Shown here: one piece after another, positions 1,164-22,889 of the stretch
Layout of the letters: every line of letters begins with the position of its first letter
Position numbering within the stretch: position 1 is the first letter of the stretch
Assembly: GCA_014874185.1 (NCBI GenBank)
Contig: JACWAF010000021.1
Coordinates: 1 to 50,231, forward strand
Direction: 5' to 3'
Source of the DNA: Nitrospirota bacterium
GTDB lineage: Bacteria; Nitrospirota; Thermodesulfovibrionia; Thermodesulfovibrionales; JdFR-88
Length of the DNA stretch: 50,231 nt
Made by a program: the position numbers and the translations under genes
Notes under the pieces: generated by a model
What the model saw: the letters and a program-made list of their open reading frames with translations, nothing else
What the model was told of the DNA's origin: nothing
Databases searched by the model: none

Positions 1164-3935
1164 TTGAAAATCCATTATTATCGTCTAAGTCTCCCGATTT
1201 TGCTCTTTCTTATTTTTTTCTTCATAAATCTTTCATATGGGTTTGACTGCTCCAGTCCGGTTCGTATCATGCCCCTTGGGGATTCGATAACCGAGGGGAC
1301 GTATGGAAATCAGGATACCAGAACGGAATCATATATTACCGGTTATCGCCAACCCTTGTTTCTTGCTCTTCAGAGCAGTAATTATAATGTTGATTTTGTG
1401 GGGAGTCTTATTTCAGGAGAGCTTGCTACGCCTCTATTCGATGCGGACCACGAAGGACATCCCGGCTATTTCGATGAGCAGATAGCAAGCGGGATATACG
1501 ATTGGCTTACAGCCAATCCGGCGGACATTGTGCTGCTGCATATTGGCACTAATGACCTGTATGTTTATTCCGGAGACACATCCACCACCGATGTGGAAAA
1601 CATATTAAACGAGATCTTCCGATTCAATAAGAACATAACCGTTGTGCTGGCTTTAATAATTAACCAGTCTCCGCCTTCCTCCGCTGTCACCCAGTTCAAC
1701 ATAAATCTCGCGGCCATGGCGGGAAAAAGGATCGCTGCCGGCGATAAAATCGTTTTAGTGGATATGGAACATGCCCTCGATTACACCACGGACATGACCG
1801 AAAACCTTCATCCAAACGACTCGGGTTATGATAAGATGGCGAGGGTCTGGTTTAATGCGTTGACCCCTCTTCTGCCAGTATGCCCTTCTTCATCCCAGTC
1901 TCCTCAAATTCAGGGGAATGGCACACTGAGAGTAAATCCGGCAAATCCCCGCTACTTCACGGATAATACCGGAAAAGCCATCTATCTTACGGGTTCACAC
2001 ACCTGGAACAACCTGCAGGACCAGTGGACAACGGACCCTCCTCCGGCATTCGATTTCACCGGCTATCTGGATTTTCTGCAGAAATACAATCACAACTTCA
2101 TAAGAGGATGGCATTGGGAGCTTACCAAGGACACGTATGACGGGGTGACATATGATTATACCCAGCCATTCCCATGGCCGCGCACCGGCCCCGGGCTGGC
2201 GCTGGATGGTAAACCAAAATTCGATCTTAGCCAGTTCAATCAGGACTATTTCGACAGGATCCGTGCCAGGGCCATTGCGGCGGGGCAGAGGGGTATCTAT
2301 TTATCTATAATGTTTTTTGATGGCTTTGGGATTCAATACAGCTCAGCCCCATGGCGCTGGAATGGGCATCCATTTAATAAATATAACAACATAAACGGAA
2401 TCAACGGAGATCCCAATAATAACGGGATAGGTACCGAGACTCAGACACTTCAGATTCCTGCAATAACAGCGCTGCAAGATGCGTATGTGAAAAAGGTGAT
2501 CGACACGGTTAACGACCTCGACAATGTTCTTTATGAGATATCAAATGAGAGCGGCACCTTCTCAACGGATTGGCAATACCACATGATCAACCTTATAAAA
2601 AATTACGAAAGCCAATTGCCGAAGCAGCATCCTGTTGGAATGACCTCGGAGTATTCTGGCGGCCTTGATTCAACCCTCCTTAGCAGCCCTGCTGATTGGA
2701 TTTCACCTGGCCAGTATGTTTCAACTTACCAGAAGAATCCGCCAGCTGCGGATGGGAACAAAGTAATCCTCCTCGATACAGATCATCTGGGCGGGCACTA
2801 TGGTGATGGGAATTGGGTTTGGAAGAGTTTTACCCGCGGATACAATCCCATATACATGGACTCTTACGGATATCCAGGGGGTTCGTTGCCTGACGAATCG
2901 GCTCGATTGAATATGGGATATACGCTTCAATATGCAAACAAAATGAATCTTGAGCTGATGGCGCCAAGAGGTGACCTCTGTTCTACATCTTATTGTCTTG
3001 CAAATCCAGGCACAGAATATCTGGTTTACCAGCCTTCCTCTTTAACCCCCTTTTCAGTTAACCTTCCATCCGGTCTTTATAATTACGAATGGTTCGATCC
3101 ATCTTCTGGGATGGTAAACTCGACTGGATCAGTCACATCCTCTGGCGGGAATATTATTTTTTCAGCCCCCTTTACAGGATATGCCGTGCTTTATCTATCT
3201 GTAAAAAATCAGGTCCCCACGGTAGCAACGCCAACAATCACCCCAAATGGAGGGCAGTTCAGCAGCCCTGTAACGGTTACTTTACAGACATCCACAACAG
3301 GGGCCGCGATCACCTATACGCTGGACGGGACTGATCCGACCCAAGGTTCAACCACATACACCGGGCCATTTACTCTTAGCTCAAGCGCCACCGTGAAGGC
3401 CAAAGCGTTCCTGACCGGATATGCAGGCAGCGGGACGGCCACTGCCAGCTTCTCGATTATACAAAGCACTGCCTATCCGATCCCGGGCCGCATCGAGGCG
3501 GAGGATTATAAACCGGGCGGCGAAGGGGTGGGATACCACGATACCACTCCGGGCAATTCAGGAGGGGCATACAGAAATGATAACGTGGATATCGAGCCCA
3601 CGACCGATGTGGGAGGTGGCTATGATGTGGGCTGGATTGCCACCGGGGAGTGGCTGGCCTTCGATGTGAATATAGCACAGGCCGGTCTCTATGACATTAC
3701 GGCCCGTGTGGCCTCGGCGGTAAGCGGCACAAAAAGCCTTCACATCACCATAGACGGGCAGAATGTGACCGGTTCAATGAGCTTCACCACATCCTCCGGT
3801 TGGCAGTCCTGGACCAATGTGACCAAACAGGGGGTGAACCTTCCGGCCGGAATTCATGAATTACGTATTTATATGGATGCGAACAGCTTTAATGTGAATT
3901 ATATCAATATAGTACCGAGTTCTCGGTCATCTTAG
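1164..3935 (+). CDS. Secreted multidomain esterase/glycoside hydrolase with CBM6
   Basis: This is a 923-residue exported protein. A hydrophobic signal peptide covers residues 1-27. An SGNH/GDSL hydrolase domain (about 33-240) shows GDSITEG, GTND and a C-terminal HPND catalytic block. From about 251 a TIM-barrel glycoside-hydrolase-like region (DUF4038/apiosidase type) contains YEISNESG near 457 and LLDTDHLGG, and ends with a beta domain. Residues 684-765 resemble the chitobiase/HexA C-terminal domain, and 771-920 are a CBM6-type carbohydrate-binding module (RIEAEDY, then GEWLAFDV). The start is TTG at 1164, chosen for the signal peptide and ribosome site. It likely deacylates and cleaves plant or microbial polysaccharide outside the cell; the substrate is unknown. 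It stands alone beside IS debris and looks acquired. Confidence 0.8.
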   Translation: MKIHYYRLSLPILLFLIFFFINLSYGFDCSSPVRIMPLGDSITEGTYGNQDTRTESYITGYRQPLFLALQSSNYNVDFVGSLISGELATPLFDADHEGHPGYFDEQIASGIYDWLTANPADIVLLHIGTNDLYVYSGDTSTTDVENILNEIFRFNKNITVVLALIINQSPPSSAVTQFNINLAAMAGKRIAAGDKIVLVDMEHALDYTTDMTENLHPNDSGYDKMARVWFNALTPLLPVCPSSSQSPQIQGNGTLRVNPANPRYFTDNTGKAIYLTGSHTWNNLQDQWTTDPPPAFDFTGYLDFLQKYNHNFIRGWHWELTKDTYDGVTYDYTQPFPWPRTGPGLALDGKPKFDLSQFNQDYFDRIRARAIAAGQRGIYLSIMFFDGFGIQYSSAPWRWNGHPFNKYNNINGINGDPNNNGIGTETQTLQIPAITALQDAYVKKVIDTVNDLDNVLYEISNESGTFSTDWQYHMINLIKNYESQLPKQHPVGMTSEYSGGLDSTLLSSPADWISPGQYVSTYQKNPPAADGNKVILLDTDHLGGHYGDGNWVWKSFTRGYNPIYMDSYGYPGGSLPDESARLNMGYTLQYANKMNLELMAPRGDLCSTSYCLANPGTEYLVYQPSSLTPFSVNLPSGLYNYEWFDPSSGMVNSTGSVTSSGGNIIFSAPFTGYAVLYLSVKNQVPTVATPTITPNGGQFSSPVTVTLQTSTTGAAITYTLDGTDPTQGSTTYTGPFTLSSSATVKAKAFLTGYAGSGTATASFSIIQSTAYPIPGRIEAEDYKPGGEGVGYHDTTPGNSGGAYRNDNVDIEPTTDVGGGYDVGWIATGEWLAFDVNIAQAGLYDITARVASAVSGTKSLHITIDGQNVTGSMSFTTSSGWQSWTNVTKQGVNLPAGIHELRIYMDANSFNVNYINIVPSSRSS

Positions 3936-4309: not shown

Positions 4310-4526
4310 ATGACGGGGAAAATAGCGTCCCTCAATATTAGCGAGCGGAAGGGCGTCAGGAAAAGACCGGTAGAGCCAGATCGGAAAGGAATGTCATGCG
4401 CGATGCGCCATCTACCATCAGGCCGGAGACTGCATAATGCCAAAGGAGGGGATATTCGTCAGGGTGTTGAGTGGCGGCGTCATTAAAAGAGGAGATCGAA
4501 TATTGGCGGGACCATTGGATGCGTAA
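4310..4526 (+). pseudogene. Decayed MOSC-domain protein (internal deletion, frame change)
   Basis: From ATG 4310 the sequence reads MTGKIASLNISERKGVRKRP, the usual N-terminus of small MOSC-domain proteins linked to molybdenum-cofactor genes. From 4389, in a different frame, it reads ECHARCAIYHQAGDCIMPKE, then GIFVRVLSGGVIKRGDRI, ending at the stop 4524-4526; this is the usual MOSC C-terminus. The central 70 or so residues are missing, so this is a genuine deletion and not a sequencing slip. The 3' end overlaps the start of the PhnD-like gene. An intact homologue would bind or transfer sulfurated molybdenum cofactor; this copy should be inactive. Confidence 0.8.
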
Positions 4527-6282
4527 TCAGTTGAAAAGGCACTTGAGGTGTGATTATCTAATCGGGAAATACAAACGAATCGCTCTCTTAATTATCCTCC
4601 TCGTTTCTTCTTTTCTTTCCGGCAAAAATTCATCCATAGCTGAGGGAGCAGTCTCGGGAAAAGCAGTTCAGAAGCTTCCTCTTAAGATCGGCATCGCATC
4701 TATGATAACCCCGATTGGCACGGTCAGATATTATCAGGATATTGTGGATTACATAGGCAAAAAGCTCGGGATGCCTGTCCAGATGGTTTATCGCGCGAAT
4801 TATGCCGATATGGACCGTCTCCTTGAAAAAGGCAAGGTGGATGTAGCCTTTATTTGTTCCGGTCCGTATGTCAATGACCACAAGAAATTCGGTGTTGAAC
4901 TTCTTGCGGCGCCGAGCGTTAATGGCAAGCCGGCGTATAACTCTTATATAATTGTCAACAAAAACAGCCCTATAAAATCCTTCGCGGACCTGAAGGGGAA
5001 GACCTTTGCATTCACCGATCCGCTGTCAAATTCGGGCAGGCTTTATATCGACTACAAACTCTCAAGGATGCATTACACCCCCGAGTCATTTTTTAAAAGG
5101 TATATCTATAGTTACAGTCACAATAAGTCAATTGAGATGGTGGCAAAAAAGCAGATTGATGGAGCCTCTGTCGACAGTCTTGTTTATGACTATATGCTCA
5201 AAAAGCATTCTCCATATGCGAGTCTTACGAGGGTTATTGAGAAATCCCCATCCTTTGGGGCACCCCCGGTAGTCATTAACAGGACTGTGGGCCGTGGCCT
5301 TAGGAAAAGGATAAAAAATATCCTTCTGAATATGAATAAAGATCCCAAAGGCAAGACCATTTTAGCTGCCATGATGATCGACAGGTGTTGTGTGGTGCAT
5401 GACAGGGATTACGACTCCATTCGCATGGAGGAGCGATGGGTTAATACCGGGGCAGGGGTTTCAAGAAGGAAGGGAATAATATATTTCGGTGTCTTACCAA
5501 GAGACAATCCGAGGATCGAATATGAGAAATATCAACCCCTCCTTGATTACCTTTCGGATGTAACGCACTACAGGTTTGAACTCGTCCTGAGAAGATCATA
5601 TGAAGACACGGTTACCGATATAGGGAATGGGACGATTGATATTGCCTTCCTTGGTTCCCTCACATATCTCGAGGCCCATAAAAAGTATGGCGCCGTCTGT
5701 ATCCTGCGGCCTAACGTAGCCTATAGTGGCGGAGCATATTACAGAAGCGTGATAATAGCCAGAAAAGACGGCCCAGTCCACAGTATCTCCGGCCTGAAAG
5801 GGAGATCATTTGCCTTTGGCCCCATGCAGTCCACTTCGGGCAATATGATTCCTCGTTATCTGCTTGCGAATTCGGGAATACATCTTGACGATCTAAGAGC
5901 CTATACCAATTTTAATTATGACGAATCCATCGTAAAAGCGGTGCTTAGCGGACAATACGATGCCGGGGCCGTCAAGGATTCAACTGCCCTGAAATTCTAT
6001 CGCCTCGGTCTTAAAATAATCGGAGAATCCGGTCCGATACCTACAGGTCCCCTGGTTATCGGACCGAAAGTCCCGCCTGCTGTTACGGAGGCTGTAAAAA
6101 AGGCCCTATGCAGTTTGAAGCCGAATACCGGGAAACACGGGAAAGTCCTGAAGAAACCGGATACGGTCTTCCGGTATGGCTTTGTAAAGACCAGGGATAG
6201 CGATTATGCAGGCATACGCAGGCAAATAAACGCCATACCTAAAACCTGCGGAATGGGATGCCATCCGAATGTAAGACTATGA
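4519..6282 (+). CDS. Tandem PhnD-like periplasmic binding protein (sensor component)
   Basis: The product has about 587 residues from ATG 4519; an in-frame GTG at 4471 would add 16. A hydrophobic export segment (IALLIILLVSSFLSG) follows a basic N-terminus. Two PhnD-type substrate-binding domains follow one another. The first contains LPLKIGIASM, VDVAFICSGPYV and FADLKGKTFAF; the second contains IIYFGVLPRD, IDIAFLGSLTYLEA and ISGLKGRSFAF. Related domains form the sensor region of TtrS-type tetrathionate sensors. Here the binding part is a separate protein whose stop codon overlaps the kinase start (ATGA). The C-terminus carries CGMGCH, a CX3CH pattern that could bind haem c. It probably presents the respiratory substrate signal to the kinase; the ligand is inferred from genomic context. 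Confidence 0.75.
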   Translation: MRNQLKRHLRCDYLIGKYKRIALLIILLVSSFLSGKNSSIAEGAVSGKAVQKLPLKIGIASMITPIGTVRYYQDIVDYIGKKLGMPVQMVYRANYADMDRLLEKGKVDVAFICSGPYVNDHKKFGVELLAAPSVNGKPAYNSYIIVNKNSPIKSFADLKGKTFAFTDPLSNSGRLYIDYKLSRMHYTPESFFKRYIYSYSHNKSIEMVAKKQIDGASVDSLVYDYMLKKHSPYASLTRVIEKSPSFGAPPVVINRTVGRGLRKRIKNILLNMNKDPKGKTILAAMMIDRCCVVHDRDYDSIRMEERWVNTGAGVSRRKGIIYFGVLPRDNPRIEYEKYQPLLDYLSDVTHYRFELVLRRSYEDTVTDIGNGTIDIAFLGSLTYLEAHKKYGAVCILRPNVAYSGGAYYRSVIIARKDGPVHSISGLKGRSFAFGPMQSTSGNMIPRYLLANSGIHLDDLRAYTNFNYDESIVKAVLSGQYDAGAVKDSTALKFYRLGLKIIGESGPIPTGPLVIGPKVPPAVTEAVKKALCSLKPNTGKHGKVLKKPDTVFRYGFVKTRDSDYAGIRRQINAIPKTCGMGCHPNVRL

Positions 6283-7751
6283 GCAAAATATCAGCATCCT
6301 TTTCCCGCATGGGTATGCAGTATAAGTTCTTCATTATTACGGCCTGCGCGATCATCGCGCTCATGAGTATCGTGGGGTATCTCTCCGTCGAAAGGGAAAA
6401 GGACATACTTTACACAGAGGCCGAAAATCAGGGACGTCTGCTTGGGGAAACGCTTGCCATCCCGATCATCAACGACCTCATCTATGAAAGGCTCGGACTT
6501 GTGGAGGAAGGAGGCCTTCTCGATGACTATATATTGCAGATGTTCAAGAGAAAGGACCTGTCGCTTCTTTATATAGCGGTCCTGGACGAGGACGGCAAGG
6601 TAATATCCCATAACGATATCAGTCAATACGGGAAGGTGTACACCGACCCGTTGACGCATAAGGCCCTTGCTGCAGACAGCACAATTATTCAGCATTTCGC
6701 GGCCCATGGCCACGACGCCCTTGATTTCGGAGTGCCGCTTTCCATCGGCAGGAAAAGATGGGGCACCCTAAAGTTCGGAATATCCCTTGAAAAGGAGGAA
6801 CATGAAATACTTGCCACCCTGAAAAAGATTGTTATCCTGACCGCGGTCTTTCTCCTGATAGGTTTTGCAATTATCGTGCTTTTGAGCCGCAGGTTTATAA
6901 GCCCCATCATTCATCTCGCCAATACCATGGAAAAAATGCGGGGCGATTATCTCGATCTGAAGGTCGATGTAAGGGGGCACGATGAACTTGCCATTCTGGG
7001 AGAGAGATTCAACGGTATGATCGCGAGGATCAAACAGGCGAATGAAGAACTGAGGGAGACCCACGAAAAGATGGGCCGGTCGGAAAAGCTTGCCTCGATA
7101 GGCATTCTAGCCTCCGGCGTGGCCCACGAGATAAACAATCCCCTTGGCGGTGTGTTCAATTTTCTCCAAATGCTTAAGCAAAACTGTGGCAATCCCGAAC
7201 TCCGGGAGAAGTACCTTGACCTTATAAAGGAAGGCTTGGACCGCATAGAAAATACGGTGAGCAAGCTTTTGTGGATGTCGCGAAAAGGGGAGCGCGCGCC
7301 AGTCGATGTAAACATCAGGAACGCCGTTGACAGCGGCTATTCATTTCTCGAATACAAGATGAAGAAAGGCGGAATCGCCTTCAGGAACGAGGTGCCTGTT
7401 GACTTGCGCTTCGCGGTCGACGTGCATGATTTCCAGCAACTGCTCATTAATCTATTCATCAATTCGGTTGACGCCATGAAGGGCGGAGGGATCCTGGAGG
7501 TAAAGGGCTGGCGGGAGGATTCCCGGGTGAATATCGAGGTCATCGACAACGGCTGCGGCATAAAGGCCGAGCATATCGGCAAGATATTCGATCCCTTTTT
7601 TACAACAAAACCTGCGGGAGAGGGGACCGGACTGGGACTTTGGTTGACGTATGAAATAATCAGGAACTACAATGGCGATATAGCCGTTGAAAGCGAGCCG
7701 GGAAAAGGGAGCAGGTTTATCTTGAAATTCCCGGAAGAGGATGCCGCATGA
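6279..7751 (+). CDS. Membrane sensor histidine kinase (HAMP-HisKA-HATPase)
   Basis: The kinase has 490 residues. ATG 6279 overlaps the upstream stop (ATGA), which fixes the start. A transmembrane helix at about 15-35 and another at about 185-208 frame a periplasmic Cache-like sensor region. A HAMP linker follows, then HisKA with the phosphoacceptor in SGVAHEINNPLGG, and HATPase_c with N box (NLFINSVDAM), DNGCGI and TGLGL boxes. It is translationally coupled to the binding protein and to the response regulator (ATGA at 7748). It is therefore expected to receive the signal from the PhnD-like protein and phosphorylate the NtrC-type regulator. Confidence 0.9.
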   Translation: MSKISASFSRMGMQYKFFIITACAIIALMSIVGYLSVEREKDILYTEAENQGRLLGETLAIPIINDLIYERLGLVEEGGLLDDYILQMFKRKDLSLLYIAVLDEDGKVISHNDISQYGKVYTDPLTHKALAADSTIIQHFAAHGHDALDFGVPLSIGRKRWGTLKFGISLEKEEHEILATLKKIVILTAVFLLIGFAIIVLLSRRFISPIIHLANTMEKMRGDYLDLKVDVRGHDELAILGERFNGMIARIKQANEELRETHEKMGRSEKLASIGILASGVAHEINNPLGGVFNFLQMLKQNCGNPELREKYLDLIKEGLDRIENTVSKLLWMSRKGERAPVDVNIRNAVDSGYSFLEYKMKKGGIAFRNEVPVDLRFAVDVHDFQQLLINLFINSVDAMKGGGILEVKGWREDSRVNIEVIDNGCGIKAEHIGKIFDPFFTTKPAGEGTGLGLWLTYEIIRNYNGDIAVESEPGKGSRFILKFPEEDAA

Positions 7752-9085
7752 AAGAGACAGTCCTGATTATAGAAGATGACAAGCTCATGCGAATCAGCCT
7801 TGAAGACGCATTGAAAAGGGCTGGATATGACGTCATGGCCTTTGAAACAGGGACTGCAGCAATGAATGTCCTTAAACAGAACTGCTGTGATGTTGCCGTA
7901 ACCGATTTCAGGCTGCCCGATATGGACGGTTTCGACATCGTGAGGGAAATAACGGGCCTAAAAGATGTCCCCGTGATCGTAATGACGGCCTATGGAACGA
8001 TAAAGGACGCCGTTGAAGCGATGAGGCTGGGGGCGTTTGACTATATCACAAAGCCGTTCTCACTTGATGAGTTCTTCCTGCTCGTTGAGAGAGCGCTGGA
8101 GATAAAGAAACTGAAGGAAGAGAACATCAGGCTCAGGAAGGACCTCGGCCGGTGCTACCGTGCGCCGAATATCATCGGCGAAGGCCCTGGGATGAAAAAG
8201 ATATTTTCTCTTATCGAAAAGGTCTCGGCATCGGATTCAACGGTATTGATCCTCGGAGAAAGCGGCACGGGCAAGGAGCTTGTGGCTACTACCATACATT
8301 ACCAGAGCAAAAGAAAAGAAAAACCCCTTATCAAGGTCAACTGCGCCGCGCTGCCGGAAGGCCTCATTGAAAGCGAACTGTTCGGGCATGAAAAGGGTGC
8401 GTTTACCGGGGCTTTAAAAAGAAAACCCGGGAGGTTCGAACTTGCCAGCGGCGGGACCATCTTCCTTGACGAGATCGGCGATTTACCGCTTTCCACCCAG
8501 GCCAAAATATTGAGGGTGCTGCAGGAGAAGACATTTGAGAGGGTCGGCGGGACCTCAACTTTGGCGGTGGATGTGAGGATCATCGCGGCAACAAACAAAA
8601 ATCTTGAAGAAGGGGTAAAAGCCGGCCGTTTCAGGGAGGACCTGTATTACAGGCTTAACGTCATACCGATAAGCCTTCCGCCGCTCCGCGAGCGAAGGGA
8701 GGACATCCCGAATCTCATAGAATTCTTTGTGGGCAAGTACAGGAGCTTGCTTTCCAAGGATGTCAGATTCTCGCAAGAGTCCGTCGATATGCTGCTGGCC
8801 TATGATTACCTCGGCAATGTCCGTGAGCTTGAAAATATTATTGAACGGTGTGTCACCCTTGCAGAGGCCGGGGTCATCGTAAAGGATGAACTGCCGGCGT
8901 CGGTAGCGGGTGGACAGCAAGCCGTCAGGAGCATACTGCTTTCCGATGTTGCCGCTGCCGCCGAGAAGAGCCACATCCTGAGAGTGCTGAATATAACGCA
9001 AGGCAGCAAAATGAGGGCCGCTGAAATGCTAGGCATAAGCAGAAAGACCCTATGGGAAAAGATCAATGCTTATAAGATTGGATAA
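7748..9085 (+). CDS. Sigma-54-dependent NtrC-family response regulator
   Basis: A 445-residue protein with the standard three domains. The receiver has the phosphorylation aspartate in VTDFRLPDMDG. The AAA+ domain has Walker A GESGTGKE, the sigma-54 contact loop GAFTGA and FLDEIGDLP. The C-terminus is a Fis-type helix-turn-helix (AAEMLGISRKTLWEKI). It overlaps the kinase by 4 bp. The next operon has a sigma-54 promoter with two upstream dyads, so this regulator very likely activates the ttr-like genes. Salmonella TtrR, by contrast, is a LuxR/FixJ-type regulator, so the control logic here differs. Confidence 0.93.
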   Translation: MKETVLIIEDDKLMRISLEDALKRAGYDVMAFETGTAAMNVLKQNCCDVAVTDFRLPDMDGFDIVREITGLKDVPVIVMTAYGTIKDAVEAMRLGAFDYITKPFSLDEFFLLVERALEIKKLKEENIRLRKDLGRCYRAPNIIGEGPGMKKIFSLIEKVSASDSTVLILGESGTGKELVATTIHYQSKRKEKPLIKVNCAALPEGLIESELFGHEKGAFTGALKRKPGRFELASGGTIFLDEIGDLPLSTQAKILRVLQEKTFERVGGTSTLAVDVRIIAATNKNLEEGVKAGRFREDLYYRLNVIPISLPPLRERREDIPNLIEFFVGKYRSLLSKDVRFSQESVDMLLAYDYLGNVRELENIIERCVTLAEAGVIVKDELPASVAGGQQAVRSILLSDVAAAAEKSHILRVLNITQGSKMRAAEMLGISRKTLWEKINAYKIG

Positions 9086-9088
9086 GAG

Positions 9089-9106
9089 CGTTACTTAATC
9101 GTAACG
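9089..9106 (+). promoter_or_regulatory. Upstream activator dyad 1
   Basis: A perfect inverted repeat CGTTAC-N6-GTAACG lies just after the regulator gene and about 145 bp upstream of the sigma-54 promoter, a normal distance for an NtrC-type enhancer site. A weaker copy lies at 9179-9196 with the same spacing. Confidence 0.6.
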
Positions 9107-9178
9107 GAAGTATGGAATTTTTAAAAAAAGATATATTATTTTGAAATCAATAAGTTATAGTTAATTCTCTCCCTGTTT

Positions 9179-9196
9179 CGTTTCCTTTTTGTAACA
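9179..9196 (+). promoter_or_regulatory. Upstream activator dyad 2 (degenerate)
   Basis: CGTTTC-N6-GTAACA matches dyad 1 at ten of twelve arm positions, with identical spacing. It lies about 40 bp before the -24 element. Two like sites in one enhancer region fit binding of an oligomeric sigma-54 activator. Confidence 0.5.
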
Positions 9197-9236
9197 TTCT
9201 TTTAATAATTCTCCCGAAAATTCAATGTAATACAAA

Positions 9237-9252
9237 TGGCATGAAAATTGCT
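9237..9252 (+). promoter_or_regulatory. Sigma-54 (-24/-12) promoter of the ttr-like operon
   Basis: TGGCAT-N5-TTGCT matches the sigma-54 consensus TGGCAC-N5-TTGCW at the key GG and GC positions with correct spacing. Transcription would begin near 9264, leaving a leader of about 190 nt before the ferredoxin gene. The NtrC-type regulator immediately upstream supports the assignment. Confidence 0.75.
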
Positions 9253-9296
9253 TTTCTTTATATATGCGTTTGTCTCAATTCATTCAAGCCAGAATA

Positions 9297-9451: not shown

Positions 9452-10576
9452 ATGGACGGTTATTCAAAAAAGGTGAAAGAATCCATGCCTGTTGAGGACA
9501 AGAGGAGGGGGTTTTTAAAAGCGGTCACTCTGGCTGCAGGAGGCTTTCTGGCAATAGGCACAATCTTTGGCAAGGCTTACCGCGCACTTGCCGAAGACAA
9601 GACCATTATCAAGGAGAGAGAAAGCGGAAGTGGCGGTTACAGTACTCCTGCCACAGACACCGGGCAAATCACCGGCCCCATCAAGGACCACAGATGGATG
9701 GGCTGGATGAACCCTTCGTTTGATGTAAATGACGACTGGAATGACTGGCGCAAAATCGAGAATCCCGAAAACTTGCCAATCTGGCATGACAGCTTTCACC
9801 AGATCAAAGGAAGCCGCCCCAAACACAAATGGGCAATGGTCATGGACCTCAGAAGGTGTGTCGGCTGCCAGGCATGTGTTGTTGCGTGCAAAAGCGAAAA
9901 CAAAGTCCCTCTGGGTGTTTTCAGGACCGTTGTCCAAGTACAGGAGTCGGGGCATATGGAGAAAGACGATGCTGGGATTGTGATCACGGAAAACGGAAAC
10001 TACGCGCCAAATGTAAAAAAATCCATGCTTCCCTTGATGTGCAACCATTGCGAAATTCCCGCCTGCGTCGCTGCCTGCCCCGTGAAGGCGACTTTTAAGC
10101 GCCAGGATGGCGTTGTGCTCATAGATTACCAAAAATGTATCGGCTGCGGAACCTGCATCCAGGCCTGCCCTTATGGCATGCGTTTTTTCAACCCTGTCCA
10201 AAAAACCGCGGACAAATGTACCCTATGCGTACATCGGATTAATGCAGGTCTGGCCCCGGCATGCGTCACCTCATGTGTGGGCAGGGCAAGGATATTTGGC
10301 GATTTGCTGGATCCGAAGAGCGAAGTATCCAGACTTGTTGCGGCCAATCCCGCATCCAGACTAAAGATCAGAGAAGGGACCAACCCGCAAGTATATTATA
10401 TAGACCTGAACGGGAACTTGGCCGAACCGTCAAATTCCGGGGATGTAAAAGTAATGTATACCTACGCAATGGGTTTTAATACTGCTTCTTATGAAAAACT
10501 CGGCGGGAAAGCGCTCCTGCCAGTCGTTGAAGAACAGGAAAATCCCTATAAAGCAAAAGCGGGGAGGAATGAATAA
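9452..10576 (+). CDS. Tat-exported four-cluster [4Fe-4S] ferredoxin subunit (TtrB/PsrB-like)
   Basis: A 374-residue protein from ATG 9452, which follows a strong GGGAGG site at 9441; an upstream in-frame start at 9413 is less likely. A twin-arginine signal (KRRGFLKAV plus a hydrophobic stretch) sends it to the periplasm. Four cysteine groups are visible: CVGCQACVVAC, CNHCEIPACVAAC, CIGCGTCIQAC and CTLCVHR with AGLAPACVTSC, as in DmsB/PsrB/TtrB electron-transfer subunits. Its stop overlaps the start of the membrane subunit (TAATG). It should pass electrons from the quinol-oxidising anchor to the catalytic subunit. Confidence 0.9.
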   Translation: MDGYSKKVKESMPVEDKRRGFLKAVTLAAGGFLAIGTIFGKAYRALAEDKTIIKERESGSGGYSTPATDTGQITGPIKDHRWMGWMNPSFDVNDDWNDWRKIENPENLPIWHDSFHQIKGSRPKHKWAMVMDLRRCVGCQACVVACKSENKVPLGVFRTVVQVQESGHMEKDDAGIVITENGNYAPNVKKSMLPLMCNHCEIPACVAACPVKATFKRQDGVVLIDYQKCIGCGTCIQACPYGMRFFNPVQKTADKCTLCVHRINAGLAPACVTSCVGRARIFGDLLDPKSEVSRLVAANPASRLKIREGTNPQVYYIDLNGNLAEPSNSGDVKVMYTYAMGFNTASYEKLGGKALLPVVEEQENPYKAKAGRNE

Positions 10577-11742
10577 TGCTAAGTGGTGAATTTTTAGAGA
10601 CGCCGGCATGGGGATTGCCCATTGTCATTTATCCTTTTTTGTCCGGTCTGGTGGCCGGTTCCTTTATAATAGCGTCTTTGTCACATGCGTTCCACATGAA
10701 AAAATTTGAGCCGCTTGCAAAATTGGCGGCAATCGTAAGCTTTGCCATGCTGCTGACCGCCGCCCTGGCTCCGCTTTTTGACGCGCTTCAGCCCTCAAGG
10801 GCCATATGGGAACTTTATGTGAGGGACCATTTCCCGTATTCCCCGCTGGGGGTTTTCATTGTTGTCTGGAGCGCCTATGTGGCGCTGATGCTCTTCGAGC
10901 TGTTTTATGTCTTCAGGACCTCGAATGTGGAAAGGTCCCGGCAGGTCGGTTTCAGGGGCCGTGTCGCCAAATTCTTCACCTTTGGCAAAACGGATCTGTC
11001 CGAGGAGGCCATAAAAAGAGATAAAAAGGCGCTTACGGTGATTTCTTCAATTGGCATAGCGCTCGCCTTTATATTTCATGGCTACGTAGGTTTTCTTTTC
11101 GGGGCCATCAAGGCAAGACCGCTGTGGTCTAATCCCCTGATACCACCGGTATTTATCGTCTCCGCGATCGTTTCGGGCATTGCCCTTGTAATGCTGCTGT
11201 ATATATTGGGATTCACCTTTTACTCAAGGAAAAATACCGTAAATCCGGGCACTCTGTCGGAGCTTTCAAAATATCTCCTGATAGCTATTGTCGCCGATCT
11301 GTTTTTTAATTTTATCGAATGGCTTTATACGGTGAGGGCGTATGCGCCAGGGGACGTATATGAAGGCTGGAAGATGGTATTTGGCAGTGGCGGGCCGCTC
11401 AGGGCAAATTATATATATCAGTTGCTGTTCGGGCTTTTATTGCCGGCGGTGTTACTGTTATCGGGCAGGGTAAGACAATCAAAAGGCTGGGGTGTTTTGA
11501 TCTCCATCCTGGTTTTAACCGGAGTATACGAGATGAGATACGATGCCGTCATCGGCCCTCAATTACAATCCAAAATCCCCGCACAGGGGCTCTTGGTTTT
11601 CCATCCGTCATGGGCGGGATACAACGGGATACTTACGGGCGCGGGTCTGTTTGGAATAGCAGTGGTGCTTATATTCGTCCTTGGGTACCTCTTCGGTTGG
11701 GAAGATGATCAAGCAGAACCAAACATAATAAACGAGAATTAG
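10576..11742 (+). CDS. NrfD/TtrC-type integral membrane quinol dehydrogenase subunit
   Basis: A 388-residue, very hydrophobic protein with about eight to nine transmembrane helices, opening with FLETPAWGLPIVIYPFLSGL, typical of NrfD/PsrC/TtrC anchors. These subunits exchange electrons with membrane quinol and dock the ferredoxin subunit. It starts inside the stop of the ferredoxin gene and is followed after 8 bp by the catalytic subunit, so the three make one complex. Confidence 0.88.
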   Translation: MLSGEFLETPAWGLPIVIYPFLSGLVAGSFIIASLSHAFHMKKFEPLAKLAAIVSFAMLLTAALAPLFDALQPSRAIWELYVRDHFPYSPLGVFIVVWSAYVALMLFELFYVFRTSNVERSRQVGFRGRVAKFFTFGKTDLSEEAIKRDKKALTVISSIGIALAFIFHGYVGFLFGAIKARPLWSNPLIPPVFIVSAIVSGIALVMLLYILGFTFYSRKNTVNPGTLSELSKYLLIAIVADLFFNFIEWLYTVRAYAPGDVYEGWKMVFGSGGPLRANYIYQLLFGLLLPAVLLLSGRVRQSKGWGVLISILVLTGVYEMRYDAVIGPQLQSKIPAQGLLVFHPSWAGYNGILTGAGLFGIAVVLIFVLGYLFGWEDDQAEPNIINEN

Positions 11743-11750
11743 GGGGGATT

Positions 11751-14700
11751 ATGGGAAACGTGGACAGAAGGGGTTTTTTAAAATATTGCACTTTCGGCGC
11801 AGGGGTGATCGTAGCGGGCGCAGGATTAAGCCAGCAGGATCTGCCCAGATTTTTCTCCTATGACGGGAAATATGTCTACCCAGGCAGGGTGGAAAATTGG
11901 CCCGGGGTGGACGTCAAATTTTCCGTCTGCAAGCAATGCCATAGCGACTGCGGACTGATAGCAAGGGTGTTTAACGGCACAATAGTGAAACTTGATGGGA
12001 ATCCATATGATATACATACCACTCAGCCGCCTTTAAAATACGAAACTCCCTCCAGAGATGCAATGGTCTATGTGGGGGGCACTTTCAACACCTCAAAACC
12101 TTATACGGACGGCGCCCATTCCCTTTGCCCCAGAGGGCAAGCCGGAATACAGTCCGCATATGACCCTTACAGGGTCTATGTGCCCCTTAAACGGAAAGGT
12201 CCAAGAGGCTCCGGGAAATTTCAGGTCATATCCTACGAGCAGCTTCTTGACGAGGTTGTAAACGGCGGGTATCTCTTCAAGGATATGCCAGGCGAGGAAA
12301 CAAGATTCGTTGAAGGGTTCAAGCAGCTATGGAACAACGGCCAAAACAGGTTTGTCCCGGCAAATCCGGACTATCCTGATTTTGGGCCAAAAACAAATCA
12401 ATTTGTTGCCACCTGGGGCAGGGCGGAAGGCGGTCAAAATAATCTGATAGGCAGATTTGCAAACGCTCTCGGTTCGGTCAACGCGATTCCGCACGTGTCA
12501 GTCTGCGAGCTTTCACACCACGTGGCGACGATCGCCACTTACGACGGCAGCGCAATGCTTAAACCGGATTTGCCAAACTCCGAACTTGTCCTGATCTTCG
12601 GGGCGAATTACTATGAAGCAAACTTTCCCATGCAGACTCTGGCAAGGAGATCTGTCGAGGCGACTGCAAGCGGTAAATGCAGGATGGTATTTATCGACCC
12701 CAGAGGCGGGAATCAAATAGCCCATGCGGACTACATACCAATAAAGCCCGATGGAGACGGCGCCTTCGCCATGGGCATGCTCAGATGGATCATAGAGAAC
12801 AAAAGATACGATGAAAACTATCTGGAAAACCCGAACAACGACGTTGCCGGGAAAAACGGCGAGCCGAGCTTTTCCAATGCCGCATATCTGGTAATAGCGG
12901 ATGAATCAAACAAGGATTACGCCACATTTTTAAAAGCCGGTGACCAGGCCTGTGTCGTTGACAAGGCATCCGGGAAATACATGCCTGCTCCGTCGTCCAA
13001 AAAGGCGGAGTTGTGGCCCACGGGCTTTTTATCGCTCGGTCCCGTCAAGGTCAAGGGGGTCTCCTGTCTGACAAGCATGCAGATGCTCTGGAAGGAACTC
13101 TCCTCTCATTCGATGGAAGAGTATGAAAAGGAGGCGGGCATCTCTAAAAAGGTCATGACGGACCTTGCAAAAGAGTTCACCTCTCACGGCAAGAAAGCGG
13201 TTGCAGACCTGTACAGAGGCCCAGTCAAACATACAAACGGTTACTACAATGCCAGGGCAATACTTATGCTGAATGTGCTCATAGGCAATGTGGACTGGCA
13301 GGGCGGATATATCGCCGGCGGCGGCGCGGCCAATGCCATGGGCGGAAAAGGTTATCCTTACGACTTGACGAAGTGGCCGAAATCTGTCGCCCCGTCAGGT
13401 GTCAAGATATCAAGGGAAGGGAGTTTTTATGAGAAGACCTCCGAGTACCAGAAAAAGCAGGCATCTGGGACATCTCCGTTTCCCGCCAAGCGCCCATGGT
13501 TCCCTTTCGGATTCGGCGTATGGCAGGAAGAATGGGCCGGCATGTACTTCCAGTACCCGTATCCTGCAAAAATTTTCTTCATGACCATGGGTAATCCCGC
13601 ATGGTCTAACCCCGGGCATGCGGGCGCGAATGACGAGTCTCTAGGATGGATCAGGATGATAAAAGACTTCAAGAAGGTGCCCTTATACATAAATTCGGAC
13701 ATCGTAATCTCCGAGAGCGCCAAATATGCGGACTATATAGTTCCCGATGCCACCTACCTCGAAGGCTGGGGAATGCTCGGAGGGTTGCCCACCTATCCTA
13801 CATCGAGCATAGGCGCGCGGCAGCCGGTAATTGAGCCCATGACCGCGAAAACCAAAGAAGGCAAGCCTGTTTGCATGGAAAATTTCCTGATCGATGTGGC
13901 AAGAAGACTGGGCTTGCCCGGCTTCGGCAAGAATGCCTTTTCGGAGGGCGGCGACCTGAATGAAAGAGAAGATTACTACCTGAAAATGCTGGCGAACATA
14001 GCGTATGACAGCAAAAGTTTGCTGAAGAATGAAAACGGGACGTATGTTAAGCAGGGGCCTGTTCCTGACGCCAATGCCGATGAGATGTCAACGGTGAAGG
14101 AATATATGAAAAGATATCCGCGGGCCCTCAGGCCGGAGGAGTGGAAAAAGGCCGCATATGTGATGGCGAGGGGCGGCAGGTTTGAAGATCAGGATGTGGC
14201 TTATATGCCGTGGGGGGAGCCCCAGTGGGTGACCCACAGATGGGGAGCGAAGAAAACGGCCGTCCAGATGTATAACGAGAAAATTGCCAATGCCCATAAT
14301 GCGATAACCGGGGAAAGGTTTAACGGGACGACCATGCTTGAACCAATCAGGGATATGAGGGGAAACCTTGTTTACAAGAAATATTCAAGAAGTGAATATC
14401 CCTTGATGCTTTCCACATACAAGGTGCCGTTCCATTCCAAGTCGAGAACAATAAACGATCCTTGGCTTCTGGAGCTTCTGCCTGGCAATTTTATCGAAAT
14501 AAGCGAAGTTGATGCAAAAAAGCTCAATGTGAGCGATGGCGACCGTGTAAAAATCAGTTCTCCGACCTACCAAAAAGGAATGGTTGCCCGGGCAAGGATA
14601 AGATTGACCCTGCGGCCCGGCGTGATAACCTTCTCCCAGGCGTTTGGGAGATGGTTAGCCGGCAGCGGCACCTGGTATATAAACGGCAACAAGTATGAAG

Positions 14701-14855
14701 GCGATCCGGCCAGGAACAGCGGGACACATTTGAACGCGCTAATGCTGGTTGACGAATCCATTGCCGCAAATGACGGTTGGACCGTCTCGTTAACGGACCC
14801 CGTAGGCGGCTCCATGAATTACTATGATACTCCCGTGAAGATAGAGAAATTATAG
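11751..14855 (+). CDS. ttrA-like: Tetrathionate-reductase-like molybdopterin catalytic subunit (TtrA family)
   Basis: A 1034-residue Tat substrate (DRRGFLKY). The N-terminal [4Fe-4S] motif is complete: C60 and C63 (CKQC), C67, and C126 in LCPRG. C252 in SVCELSHH is the likely Mo-ligating cysteine of a bis-MGD enzyme. The length and insertions fit the TtrA group (about 1020 residues), which also includes SrdA-type selenate reductases, and differ from shorter PsrA/PhsA enzymes. Gene order B-C-A is followed by a TorD-like chaperone. Tetrathionate is the best guess because the regulator genes include PhnD-type sensing as in TtrS, but selenate or another oxyanion cannot be excluded. Confidence 0.8.
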   Translation: MGNVDRRGFLKYCTFGAGVIVAGAGLSQQDLPRFFSYDGKYVYPGRVENWPGVDVKFSVCKQCHSDCGLIARVFNGTIVKLDGNPYDIHTTQPPLKYETPSRDAMVYVGGTFNTSKPYTDGAHSLCPRGQAGIQSAYDPYRVYVPLKRKGPRGSGKFQVISYEQLLDEVVNGGYLFKDMPGEETRFVEGFKQLWNNGQNRFVPANPDYPDFGPKTNQFVATWGRAEGGQNNLIGRFANALGSVNAIPHVSVCELSHHVATIATYDGSAMLKPDLPNSELVLIFGANYYEANFPMQTLARRSVEATASGKCRMVFIDPRGGNQIAHADYIPIKPDGDGAFAMGMLRWIIENKRYDENYLENPNNDVAGKNGEPSFSNAAYLVIADESNKDYATFLKAGDQACVVDKASGKYMPAPSSKKAELWPTGFLSLGPVKVKGVSCLTSMQMLWKELSSHSMEEYEKEAGISKKVMTDLAKEFTSHGKKAVADLYRGPVKHTNGYYNARAILMLNVLIGNVDWQGGYIAGGGAANAMGGKGYPYDLTKWPKSVAPSGVKISREGSFYEKTSEYQKKQASGTSPFPAKRPWFPFGFGVWQEEWAGMYFQYPYPAKIFFMTMGNPAWSNPGHAGANDESLGWIRMIKDFKKVPLYINSDIVISESAKYADYIVPDATYLEGWGMLGGLPTYPTSSIGARQPVIEPMTAKTKEGKPVCMENFLIDVARRLGLPGFGKNAFSEGGDLNEREDYYLKMLANIAYDSKSLLKNENGTYVKQGPVPDANADEMSTVKEYMKRYPRALRPEEWKKAAYVMARGGRFEDQDVAYMPWGEPQWVTHRWGAKKTAVQMYNEKIANAHNAITGERFNGTTMLEPIRDMRGNLVYKKYSRSEYPLMLSTYKVPFHSKSRTINDPWLLELLPGNFIEISEVDAKKLNVSDGDRVKISSPTYQKGMVARARIRLTLRPGVITFSQAFGRWLAGSGTWYINGNKYEGDPARNSGTHLNALMLVDESIAANDGWTVSLTDPVGGSMNYYDTPVKIEKL

Positions 14856-14857
14856 AT

Positions 14858-15550
14858 ATGGCCATGGACATTCCGGCATTTAACGAATTGAGCTTTAATA
14901 GAAAGCTCATATATGATGTGCTGTCCGAATTGTTTTCAAAAAGACCGGACGAAATCTTTTTAAAGAAATTAAACACAAAAGGTCTGTTTGCCTTTTTGGG
15001 AGAGTCCTGCCAATGTGAAGAAATAACCGGTAAAATCGAGACCGCCGTTAAAAAACTCCTGATGGACAAAGCGCATATAAAAAAGCTTTGCGAGGAGTTT
15101 GAAAACGTTTTTCTAATTCCGGTTGCAGATGCCTATATTCCTCCCGTCGCCTCCGCCTTCATGGGACCGGACATGAAAAAGGCTTTGTCCGGCGGCCTTC
15201 CAGAAGAATTAACGGCCATATATGGCGCATACGGCGCAAAATTCTGTAATGATAAAGAGGACATCTTTGTTTTTCATCCGGACCACGTTGCAAGCTTGTT
15301 TAACTTCATGTCTTTCCTCATAGAAAAAGAGGAATATTGCCGGGAAGCTGTTGATCTTTTTTATGGCATTATTTACGCGGAAAAGGCGTTTTTTGAACGG
15401 TTTATTCAAAGCTGGATCAACGGCTACTTGAACGAAATGCACTCAAAGGTATCTTCAGATTTCTATAAACAGATTGCTAATTTTACCCAAAATTACATAT
15501 CGAACGAAAACCGGCTTTTTGGTGTTTGGGGGCTTGTGCCTGAATTGTAA
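14858..15550 (+). CDS. TorD/DmsD-like molybdoenzyme maturation chaperone
   Basis: A 230-residue, mostly helical protein that begins 2 bp after the catalytic gene. It has the TorD-family layout: FEN(V)FLIPVADAYIPPVAS, where family members have an F.GP....PP.ES motif, and FHPDHVASLFNFMSFLIEKE, where the family has PDH...EL.F. Such chaperones bind the Tat signal of their partner and hold it until cofactor insertion. Position makes the upstream catalytic subunit the expected client. Divergence from the second TorD-like gene (18965-19564) fits separate clients. Confidence 0.8.
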   Translation: MAMDIPAFNELSFNRKLIYDVLSELFSKRPDEIFLKKLNTKGLFAFLGESCQCEEITGKIETAVKKLLMDKAHIKKLCEEFENVFLIPVADAYIPPVASAFMGPDMKKALSGGLPEELTAIYGAYGAKFCNDKEDIFVFHPDHVASLFNFMSFLIEKEEYCREAVDLFYGIIYAEKAFFERFIQSWINGYLNEMHSKVSSDFYKQIANFTQNYISNENRLFGVWGLVPEL

Positions 15551-15598
15551 GAATTGCAGATACCCGGCATGTCCCCGGAATCCCGGAGGAAAGCTGAA

Positions 15599-16219
15599 AT
15601 GAGGACGTTGAATATATCTGATTTTGACACGATTCTTCAGGAATCCGTCAGGGTCCACGGGCATCTCTGCCCTGGGCAGGTGCTTGGCGTGCGGATGGCC
15701 ATTTGCGGGCTTGGAGGGATCGGAATAGATGACCCGAAGGGGAAGGACAGGAAGAAGCTCCTTGTCATAGTCGAGGTGGACAGGTGCGCCACGGATGCGC
15801 TCCAGTCGGTGACCGGCTGCAGCCTGGGCAAGCGCTCGATGAAGTTCGTGGATTATGGCAAGATGGCCGCCACATTCATGGACCTTGAGACAGGTAGAGC
15901 TGTCAGGGTAGTGGCGAAGGAAGAAGCCAGGGCGCAGGCGCGGGATTATTTCCCGGAGATCGGGAACCAGTACGTCTGCCAGATCGAAGCCTACAAGATA
16001 ATGCCGGATGAAGAACTCTTCTATTCTGAGCCGGTGGCCGTGAAAATTCCTGAGGACGAGATGCCTGGCGCCAGGCCAGGGCGCGCCCGCTGTGCGCGTT
16101 GCGGAGAATGGTTTTATCTAAGGAGCGGCCACTGCACACATCTTTGCAGGTCCTGCAGGAAAGGTTCGTATTACACCAGAGTCTCTTCTTTAGGAGAAGC
16201 GTTATGCGAAAAACCATAA
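15599..16219 (+). CDS. FmdE-family protein with C-terminal zinc ribbon
   Basis: The protein has 206 residues from ATG 15599, chosen for the GGAGG site at 15585-15589 and by comparison with the paralogue at 48362. It carries the FmdE signature VHGHLCPGQVLGVRMA and CATDALQSVTGCSLGKRSMK, then a four-cysteine ribbon (CARC...CRSC). FmdE was named from molybdenum formylmethanofuran dehydrogenase operons; its biochemical role is poorly defined. No methanofuran enzyme is present, so the context (molybdoenzyme, MoeA-like, MoaA) suggests a role in cofactor or metal handling. The paralogue continues into a ModE DNA-binding domain. Here the reading frame stops, and the next bases hold a remnant of that domain. 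Confidence 0.82.
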   Translation: MRTLNISDFDTILQESVRVHGHLCPGQVLGVRMAICGLGGIGIDDPKGKDRKKLLVIVEVDRCATDALQSVTGCSLGKRSMKFVDYGKMAATFMDLETGRAVRVVAKEEARAQARDYFPEIGNQYVCQIEAYKIMPDEELFYSEPVAVKIPEDEMPGARPGRARCARCGEWFYLRSGHCTHLCRSCRKGSYYTRVSSLGEALCEKP

Positions 16220-16349
16220 GGGAATCGGGATACGGCCCGATCTCTGGATAGAAGTGGAAGCGGAGCGGTCTTTCTACATGTATTCCCATTACAGTCCTCT
16301 GGTAATGAGAAAGGCTTTAAGAGTGCAGGGTGAAAACCATGTGCGATAA
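16200..16349 (+). pseudogene. Frameshifted remnant of a ModE-type DNA-binding domain
   Basis: In the frame of 16224 the sequence reads NHKGIGIRPDLWIEVEAERS, then SHYSPLVMRKALRVQG, and stops at 16347-16349. The FmdE-ModE paralogue reads SHNGLEVKSKLWLELEGQPF, then KALLLKAIDQCG, at the equivalent place. Shared positions include H-x-G, the LW pair, E-x-E and the K-A pair. The FmdE frame (ending 16219) and this frame differ, so at least one indel separated them. The recognition helices are already lost. This indicates that the ancestral island gene was an FmdE-ModE fusion. Confidence 0.7.
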
Positions 16350-17433: not shown

Positions 17434-17434
17434 C

Positions 17435-19564: not shown

Positions 19565-19602
19565 GCTTGGGATGGGCAGGAGGCCCGCCCACCCCGTATC
19601 CT

Positions 19603-20178: not shown

Positions 20179-20192
20179 GTATGTTCACCTCC

Positions 20193-22523: not shown

Positions 22524-22535
22524 TCTCTTCCTCCT

Positions 22536-22889
22536 TTACTGCGCATACAAGACATTTGCACCCTTCACGCCGCCGCTGTGGCAGCCTGCGCAAATCTGCG
22601 GGTCAACCTGTTTTCTCAATGCAGCCGCGGATCCCTCCCTCAGGTCAACGGCCTGATGGCAGTCTGCACACTTCTTCGGCGTCGATAGTTTCGATTCGAG
22701 ATGCACCATGTGGAACATCTTGAATTTCTTATTGAGCGAAACCTCTTTCCTGATCCTGGCATGGCATGCAAGGCATTCCTTGTTGCTCAGCTTTCCTGCA
22801 TTCTTATGCAGATCAACAAGATTCTTCTCCGCCGCCATTAGTGTTGAGGCGAAAAAAAGACATAAGCAGCAGATAAAAATACTTTTCAT
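22536..22889 (-). CDS. Small three-haem periplasmic cytochrome c
   Basis: A 117-residue protein from ATG 22889; the upstream in-frame start at 23036 would run through tatA and is rejected. A signal peptide (MKSIFICCLCLFFASTLMAA) precedes three CXXCH sites: CLACH, CADCH and CAGCH, with extra histidines for axial ligation. The start overlaps the tatA stop (ATGA), and the next gene is the molybdoenzyme. It probably links that enzyme to a periplasmic electron pool in place of an NrfD-type anchor. Confidence 0.85.
   Translation of the reverse strand: MKSIFICCLCLFFASTLMAAEKNLVDLHKNAGKLSNKECLACHARIRKEVSLNKKFKMFHMVHLESKLSTPKKCADCHQAVDLREGSAAALRKQVDPQICAGCHSGGVKGANVLYAQ

Follow-up and report, generated by a model that had tools for sequence, protein, structure and literature searches.

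Control by sigma-54 is the published mode for aioXSR, and two tandem palindromes together with a -24/-12 element have been reported in all 12 aioXSR-bearing aioBA promoters (Li et al., PMC3834237). The regulator AioR has the consensus GTTN(10)AAC, described with a DNase footprint (Shi et al., PMC5335332), and the aioB promoters of NT-26 and pSinA each hold two GTT-N10-AAC sites and the element TGGCAC-N5-TTGC. In Melioribacter roseus, an ArrTSR system is described right upstream of ttr, and the ttrA and psr/phsA transcripts rise with arsenate, the rise being statistically clear only for psr/phsA (PMC5492636). As for the enzymes, TtrA, SrdA and the archaeal alternative arsenate reductase form one family in a review tree (PMC10100899); this family covers tetrathionate, selenate and arsenate, and the enzyme sequence alone does not tell which. 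The ttr-type complex of Desulfolithobacter is presented as specific to thiosulfate disproportionation, in a paper that also cites Muramatsu 2020 on a TtrA homologue and arsenate (PMC9751629). No earlier description of the operator reported below at ttr-like operons, or of a two-domain X, was found in the open-access literature searched.

The locus described here belongs to a stretch of 50,231 nucleotides (contig JACWAF010000021.1; hereafter the window) of a Nitrospirota genome of 2.43 Mb in 42 contigs with one RpoN gene. The initial annotation had placed two dyads and a sigma-54-type element behind an NtrC-type regulator, and all three are present, at 9089-9106, 9179-9196 and 9237-9252. It had missed that the regulator is the third gene of a module of the AioXSR/ArxXSR type, that the same site recurs before a second molybdoenzyme operon, and that related modules in other genomes stand upstream of ArrA-like operons. 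Taken as a whole, the locus is probably an XSR regulon of the AioXSR/ArxXSR kind, responsive to arsenic oxyanions and driven by sigma-54, with a TtrA-like enzyme that is a candidate arsenate reductase. Its features are the following.

4471-6282, + strand: X, binding protein with two PhnD-like domains (two Pfam Phosphonate-bd stretches; PDB matches; pocket YCYSSHD)
6258-7751, + strand: S, sensor histidine kinase with sCache_3_2, HAMP, HisKA and HATPase_c (domain scan)
7748-9085, + strand: R, NtrC/AtoC-type response regulator, recognition helix LGISRKTLWEKI (domain scan, helix comparison)
9089-9106, no strand: dyad 1, CGTTAC-N6-GTAACG, CGTTACTTAATCGTAACG; centre about -166 from the predicted start
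9179-9196, no strand: dyad 2, CGTTTC-N6-GTAACA, CGTTTCCTTTTTGTAACA; centre about -76, starting 90 bp after dyad 1
9237-9252, + strand: sigma-54 (-24/-12) promoter, TGGCAT-N5-TTGCT, TGGCATGAAAATTGCT; predicted start about 9263-9264, spacing conserved
9452-10576, + strand: B, TtrB-like 4Fe-4S subunit with an RRGFLK Tat-like signal seen by eye (domain and family-model scans)
10576-11742, + strand: C, NrfD-like membrane subunit (domain scan)
11751-14855, + strand: A, molybdopterin catalytic subunit of the TtrA/SrdA/alternative-ArrA type (family models, tree, structure matches)
14858-15550, + strand: TorD-type chaperone (domain and family-model scans)
15554-16219, + strand: FmdE-family protein, another copy of which lies near many related operons (domain scan, neighbourhoods of relatives)
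16330-17433, + strand: MoeA-like molybdopterin-binding protein (domain scan)
17321-18388, + strand: MoaA-like radical SAM protein (domain scan)
18965-23011, - strand: second target operon, with a PhsA/PsrA-like molybdoenzyme at 20193-22523
23115-23130, - strand: sigma-54-like element before the second operon, GGGCAAGGAATTTGCA (aligned with relatives)
23175-23192, no strand: third dyad, TGTTTCATTTAAGTAACA as read on the - strand (pattern scan and alignment with relatives)

X, S and R are three overlapping genes upstream of the dyads, and the operon downstream runs from the iron-sulfur, NrfD and molybdopterin subunits (B, C and A) through the TorD-type chaperone to the FmdE, MoeA-like and MoaA-like genes. 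The -24/-12 element, the RpoN gene and R as enhancer-binding protein supply the parts expected of a sigma-54-dependent promoter. None of the 29 window proteins scanned was seen to be an ars gene product, and an Acr3 gene sits on another contig. Elsewhere in the window, a 923-aa protein (1164-3935) combines GDSL lipase, Fn3-associated/CHB_HEX_C_1 and CBM6 domains, and an RNA 3'-terminal phosphate cyclase gene is found at 38833-39861.

Related loci were collected by scanning named genome contigs with an alignment of seven X proteins, which gave 207 stretches and 66 confirmed loci, mostly from Nitrospirota MAGs, with Syntrophus, other Deltaproteobacteria and a Desulfobulbaceae among the remainder; weaker X matches came from Alphaproteobacteria and others. 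The 66 include 21 more distant binding proteins matched by shorter segments (L122-L141, L143) and many contigs that end before an operon, and all are kept in the denominator. At least 11 of them are the same contigs as loci with G handles, so that the orthologue and survey counts overlap (L078=G060:C42, L079=G066:C325, L081=G064:C7, L083=G069:C50, L086=G044:C120, L092=G141:C209, L095=G048:C8, L103=G031:C50, L105=G004:C13, L108=G016:C14, L109=G137:C4).

The dyads can be described by the pattern YGTTWC-N6-GWAACR, which was derived from the two sites themselves, so that counts made with it are partly circular and conservation is the stronger test. Allowing one mismatch, the window holds five matches, three of them exact, against a mean of 0.90 in shuffled sequence, where 0 of 100 shuffles reach five. 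Over the whole 2.43 Mb genome there are four exact places (one match per strand for the pattern read backwards), three in this window upstream of molybdoenzyme operons and the fourth inside a kinase-like gene. The geometry of the window dyads is GTT-N10-AAC, dyad 2 (GTTTC..GTAAC) included. Taken alone, the -24/-12 element is not beyond chance in the window, with 3 found and 3.04 expected at one mismatch.

The initial annotation had proposed to look in relatives for conserved dyads upstream of ttr-like operons, and the scan bears it out. In all five same-family orthologues found, the stretch from regulator to operon holds two dyads and a -24/-12 element. The TtrA-like protein there is 69-88% identical to that of the window, and X-S-R adjoins the operon (in G065 the contig starts inside X); the deviations from the site patterns are one arm mismatch in G060 and one promoter mismatch in four of the five. 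Outside the family, dyads are also present where the TtrA-like enzyme is more distant (G004, G016, G044), and in G048 even though R lies about 6 kb from the operon; G016 has no strict -24/-12 match, TGGCAT-N5-TTGTA standing there. Across the orthologues compared, the six spacer bases vary and the dyad arms hardly do, which is the pattern expected of a binding site. A composite of dyad-N35-65-TGGYAY-N6-TGC occurs in 15 of 176 genomes of the order, and its reversed control in none of the 176. The genome of the window does not count among the 15, since its promoter-near dyad has GTTTC. In the survey, site pairs were defined as GTTAC-N6-GTAAC with at most one mismatch each, 80-135 bp apart, and counted over the window plus the 66 loci: tandem pairs occur in 34 of these 67, and 59 other arm arrangements of the same five letters give a mean of 0.03 and a maximum of 1.

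The promoter element follows the pairs with a preferred direction and distance. A -24/-12 match (score of at least 8 of 10, within 75 bases downstream) accompanies 24 of 37 distinct pairs, against 0 upstream and 0 on the opposite strand, and it lies 40-43 bp past the second dyad in 16 of the 24 and 51-76 bp past it in the others; for L119, L138, L140, L141 and L143 the direction was set by hand for this scoring. With a looser score of 7 the two controls rise to 2/37 each and the downstream count is still 24. Among the 13 pairs missed by the mechanical scoring, nine carry (A/C/T)GG(C/T)A(C/T)-N5-TTG(A/T) at the usual distance. A -24/-12 match by itself is not rare, which is what a reading of the whole arrangement as chance inverted repeats beside a chance sigma-54-like match would draw on; the recurrence in 34 of 67 loci (at most 1 with permuted arms), in 15 of 176 genomes (0 of 176) and at 24 of 37 pairs (0 and 0) already refutes it, and we give it practically no weight. 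The dyads lie directly behind the R gene, and in one locus (L190) a single dyad stands behind R about 6 kb from the ArrA-like operon, as would suit autoregulation of R, or control of another nearby gene, with the ttr-like operon driven from elsewhere. Against this stand the dyad pairs of G048, G137, L118, L080 and L190, which sit at the molybdoenzyme operon, kilobases away from R, and the -24/-12 element, which faces the operon, mostly at a fixed distance; such a role for the dyads is therefore extremely unlikely. Control of the operon by R through these sites is the reading retained below. A chemoreceptor gene was seen divergent from the dyads of one XSR locus (L076, 3577-5897), which recalls the AioR control of mcp in Agrobacterium (PMC5335332).

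R consists of a receiver, a Sigma54_activat domain and a Fis-type HTH, with a GAFTGA motif read in the sequence, and is an NtrC/AtoC-type regulator with an AAA+ domain, as in AioXSR/ArxXSR. Its recognition helix carries the motif LWEK. All 27 of the compared rows in which an XSR regulator goes with sites of this kind have the motif (25 of these rows are distinct, and AioR and ArxR are among them), as against 0 of 16 other rows, three of these being cut before the position. In the window genome the motif is present in one of 18 NtrC-type regulators, all 18 tails having been read, and that one is the window's own R. XSR-like trios without dyads (L133-L136, L139) carry other helices; the recognition helix co-varies with the dyad. 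In a free tree R is not joined with AioR/ArxR with support, and a single clade of R and AioR/ArxR, a group chosen after the first tree, is not rejected (p-AU 0.512). The Bosea and Aureimonas plasmid regulators, which are among the most similar to R, do not belong to aio loci, have another helix and were used as outside rows.

Five genomes contain the composite site and no X at E <= 1e-100. The closest regulator hit has LWEK in all five, and none of the five lower-ranked regulator hits read there carries it. These genomes (G110, G111, G112, G124 and G125; L069-L073) belong to one genus; their two dyads lie about 33 bp from each other and are accompanied by a -24/-12 element, and the gene behind the dyads is a PF03601 (YeiH-type) gene in the one genome scanned of the five. 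As a counter-example of dyads without X, these sites were set aside: with LWEK in the best regulator hit, they seem to represent a regulon of their own that shares the site. The neighbours of R were inspected in two of the five.

As regards the sensor, domain 1 of X has its best match among solved structures (PDB) in ArrX (6x6b, E 1.5e-48), followed by AioX, and domain 2 in PtxB/HtxB. The seven pocket residues of AioX listed by Badilla et al. (PMC5908839) are all present in X, namely Tyr88, Cys106, Tyr131, Ser161, Ser163, His192 and Asp210 (YCYSSHD; numbering checked on NT-26 AioX); in the two PhnD proteins used for comparison, Cys106 is replaced by Gly and Asp210 by Ser or Ala. Across the 66 loci Cys106 is kept in 65, position 210 holds Asp in 31 and Glu in 34, and position 163 holds Ser in 34 and Thr in 32; according to the same study, the pocket alone does not fix selectivity (PMC5908839). 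The order X-S-R beside a molybdoenzyme operon, typical of AioXSR/ArxXSR, is found in the window and in the five same-family orthologues. Unlike AioX and ArxX, X has a second PhnD-like domain, which we count as a variant, since the passages on the known members do not state a single domain as defining. In six of the seven aligned orthologues a CGxGCHP motif closes X, beyond the PDB-matched stretch of domain 2; it is possibly a metal or redox site.

The enzyme behind the first operator is less easily named. The initial annotation had proposed a sigma-54-controlled reductase of the tetrathionate type: the enhancer-type dyads, the sigma-54 promoter and the ttr-like B-C-A operon hold, and the assignment as tetrathionate reductase does not, the catalytic subunit reaching 577.7 bits with the TtrA model (cut-off 1750) and B 229.3 bits with the TtrB model (cut-off 416). 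With the ArrA model the catalytic subunit scores 91.2 bits (cut-off 1600), and its matches to solved structures are nearly equal (ArrA 84.5 bits, thiosulfate reductase 81.6) and do not decide. The suggestion that control departs from the enteric model proved sound, as R is of the NtrC type, unlike TtrSR, and no TtrS over the cut-off was found in the window genome; on these two grounds plain enteric-type ttr control was rejected. In a tree of 35 rows the catalytic subunit falls in a set of 12 rows supported at 97/97, with no supported order within the set and with long-branch warnings; this set includes the arsenic-island enzyme of Citrobacter arsenatis, TtrSR-type TtrA proteins and two others. 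The order B-C-A is found in the window, G060 and G066; in the other three of the five same-family orthologues (G064, G065 and G069; L036, L038 and L039) no C gene lies between B and A, which are separated by only 50-205 bases. RRGFLK was seen by eye near the N termini of both A and B.

The nearest plasmid-borne relative of the catalytic subunit, at 38.2% identity, lies inside an arsenic island: on a conjugative IncFII plasmid of C. arsenatis, a TtrBCA-like operon (L146, 8031-13426) forms part of an ars resistance island, between arsD-A-B-C and a further arsC. No such dyads were found at this enzyme. Matches of like identity were observed on plasmids of other enterobacteria. The TtrA-like enzyme of the window is a candidate for an 'alternative arsenate reductase'.

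More can be learned from the enzymes that related operators precede. Within 3.5 kb, the nearest molybdoenzyme gene of the 34 paired-dyad loci is ArrA-like in 8, TtrA-like in 10 (5 of the window type and 5 of two other types), of the window's PhsA-like type in 4 and of an alphaproteobacterial type in 3, and none was found on the sequence examined in 9; one of these nine, L109, corresponds to the contig of G137, on which dyads (L075) are followed by an ArrA-like gene. Five ArrA-like proteins were scanned (L088, L096, L102 and L106 from the group of 8, plus the single-dyad locus L142 from outside the 34): they score 1043-1144 bits against the ArrA cut-off of 1600, with the next-best model at 280.2 bits at most, and that of L102 matches solved ArrA at E 2e-297. 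At the ArrA-like loci, identity to the window's proteins is 56-59% for X and 68-78% for R. In the one-contig genome G014 (L190), XSR is present together with an ArrA-like operon behind two dyads and TGGCATGAAAGTTGAA. At E <= 1e-200, ArrA was found in 21 of 176 genomes of the order, none of them over the cut-off and none in the window's family; it was not found in the window genome at that threshold. X occurs with ArrA or TtrA in 33 of the 176 genomes (47 with X, 50 with an enzyme; Fisher test, p 9e-13), a value that ignores relatedness and is indicative only; at the same thresholds 14 genomes have X without either enzyme. On a contig of Candidatus Pyrohabitans (L131), an X-like protein was seen near a G051-type molybdoenzyme, without dyads.

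The second operon (18965-23011) comprises a TatA-like short protein and a small cytochrome c with three CxxCH, both recognised by eye, the molybdoenzyme, an iron-sulfur subunit and a TorD-type chaperone. The best family model of the molybdoenzyme is PhsA, and its closest solved structure is a thiosulfate/polysulfide reductase. This operon carries one dyad only, the promoter-near one; in 23193-23320, where relatives have a second, upstream dyad, the sequence does not align and no dyad was found. The element GGGCAAGGAATTTGCA lines up in register with TGGCA-N6-TTG(C/A) in five relatives, TTGA being the form in two of them. The window's PhsA-like type is found directly behind XSR and dyads in L098, L099 and L113; in L080 it also follows dyads, which there lie 5 kb from R.

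In the mechanism that we propose, an arsenic oxyanion (arsenate or arsenite) would bind domain 1 of periplasmic X, which would signal to the kinase S, and S would phosphorylate R. R would then occupy both GTT-N10-AAC dyads, which are 90 bp apart, loop the DNA and, with its ATPase, open the RpoN polymerase at 9237-9252, thereby switching on the ttrBCA-like operon, whose TtrA-like enzyme would reduce arsenate; the same R would control the PhsA-like operon from the dyad at 23175-23192, and the PhsA-like enzyme might perhaps reduce arsenate too. The wiring, that is X-S-R, dyads, sigma-54 and two operons, has good support, better for the first operon than for the second, and it is very probable that R uses these sites and sigma-54 to control both. 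Arsenic oxyanions as signal and substrate are, in our judgement, a likely though less secure proposition. The arsenic reading draws on the pocket, on the operator and on the relatives with ArrA-like operons, and the likely signal is an arsenic oxyanion rather than tetrathionate; it is opposed by the kinship of the enzyme with TtrA and PhsA and by the expression of a ttr-type complex under thiosulfate disproportionation (PMC9751629). Also counted against it are the second PhnD-like domain of X, the variation at Asp210 and Ser163, the low ArrA score of the catalytic subunit, the lack of ArrA in the genome at E <= 1e-200 and of ars genes among the 29 window proteins scanned, the missing C gene in three of five orthologues, the induction in M. 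roseus that was statistically clear for psr/phsA only, the Citrobacter island enzyme without dyads, the TtrSR-type TtrA proteins in the enzyme's tree set, and the clade with AioR/ArxR, which is allowed and not supported.

The main rival keeps the same wiring and supposes that a sulfur oxyanion, tetrathionate or thiosulfate, is sensed and reduced, that the enzymes are true sulfur-compound reductases and that the branch of X has changed its ligand. It gains from the B-C-A gene order, from TtrA/TtrB and PhsA as best family models and from the solved structure closest to the second target, and further from a sulfur disproportionator among the Thermodesulfovibrionales (PMC12998232) and from Desulfolithobacter, where ttr-type proteins and a substrate-binding protein, whose kinship with XSR is only putative, are reported only under thiosulfate disproportionation (PMC9751629). 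X nevertheless keeps the Cys of the arsenic binders, which the PhnD proteins compared do not have, related X and R proteins precede ArrA-like operons, and AioX, ArxX and ArrX are reported to bind neither tetrathionate nor thiosulfate (PMC5908839), so that we rate a sulfur ligand as unlikely. A selenate reductase of the SrdBCA type under an XSR that senses selenate or selenite would agree with the family shared by TtrA, SrdA and the archaeal arsenate reductase (PMC10100899); as the same three binding proteins are described as showing no selenate binding (PMC5908839), it is very unlikely.

If arsenic is the signal, a wider proposal can be made, which we put forward only tentatively. A single sigma-54 regulator that senses arsenic and acts through fixed tandem operators would, across uncultured Nitrospirota and in some of the Thermodesulfobacteriota, command interchangeable respiratory enzymes, ArrA-, TtrA- or PhsA-like, of which the window has the last two. 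On this view the TtrA-like complex would truly reduce arsenate, and X, with its two domains, might balance arsenate against another oxyanion, for example phosphate. Were the complex an arsenate reductase, many genomes annotated as tetrathionate- or thiosulfate-reducing would be those of arsenate respirers. Where the sensor pocket is of the arsenic type and the operator can be read, the regulator offers an independent, genome-readable clue to the substrate, and it predicts arsenate respiration in lineages without ArrA; searches with the operator and the LWEK helix can locate the regulon in further genomes, and the substrate question becomes testable with purified X, R and short DNA.

Among the known systems, TtrSR-ttrBCA (the enteric model, with a copy in Azospirillum, L153) shares with the window the BCA order, relatives of TtrA, TtrB and TtrC and a PhnD-like sensing protein. 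In the Azospirillum copy, unlike the window, ttrBCA comes after genes for a PhnD-type protein of 604 aa and a regulator of 208 aa; on the Salmonella model, these would be a putative TtrS with a fused kinase and a putative TtrR of the LuxR/FixJ type, respectively. The ArrTSR-ttr locus of M. roseus also has a homologue of a phosphonate-binding protein, a kinase and a regulator next to ttr, with ttr and psr/phs both arsenate-responsive; there, psr/phs has a MerR-like neighbour, and the passages on this locus describe no operator or sigma-54 element (PMC5492636). By analogy, it provides a precedent for the pairing of XSR with ttr and for the response to arsenate. The X of the Chrysiogenes arsenatis ArrXSR is the closest solved structure to the window's X (the PDB entry names ArrX only, and the organism is taken from PMC5908839), whereas ArrR is CitB/FixJ-like, without an AAA+ domain (PMC5908839). 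On the Sulfuricella pSCD plasmid, whose XSR is ArxXSR by our own reading, and on the Azoarcus KH32C plasmid, the NtrC-type R, the pocket YCYS(S/T)HD, the GTTAC..GTAAC-type sites and a CISM operon are shared with the window, whereas XSR is divergent from the operon and X has a single domain; the enzyme is closest to the ArrA model in Sulfuricella (431 bits) and to the PhsA model in Azoarcus (342 bits). The Azoarcus XSR has GTTAC..GTAAC itself and adjoins acr3, arsA, arsD and arsC. Finally, AioXSR-aioBA of Rhizobium NT-26, Agrobacterium and Sinorhizobium M14 differs in its target, AioBA instead of TtrA-like and PhsA-like enzymes, in an X without the second PhnD-like domain, in its arms (GTTCG/CGAAC, against GTTAC/GTAAC in the window) and in the distance between sites (33 bp, against 90), and it has in common with the window the X-S-R order, a PhnD-like X with the same seven pocket residues, an NtrC/AtoC-type R with LWEK, two GTT-N10-AAC palindromes and a -24/-12 promoter before a molybdoenzyme operon.
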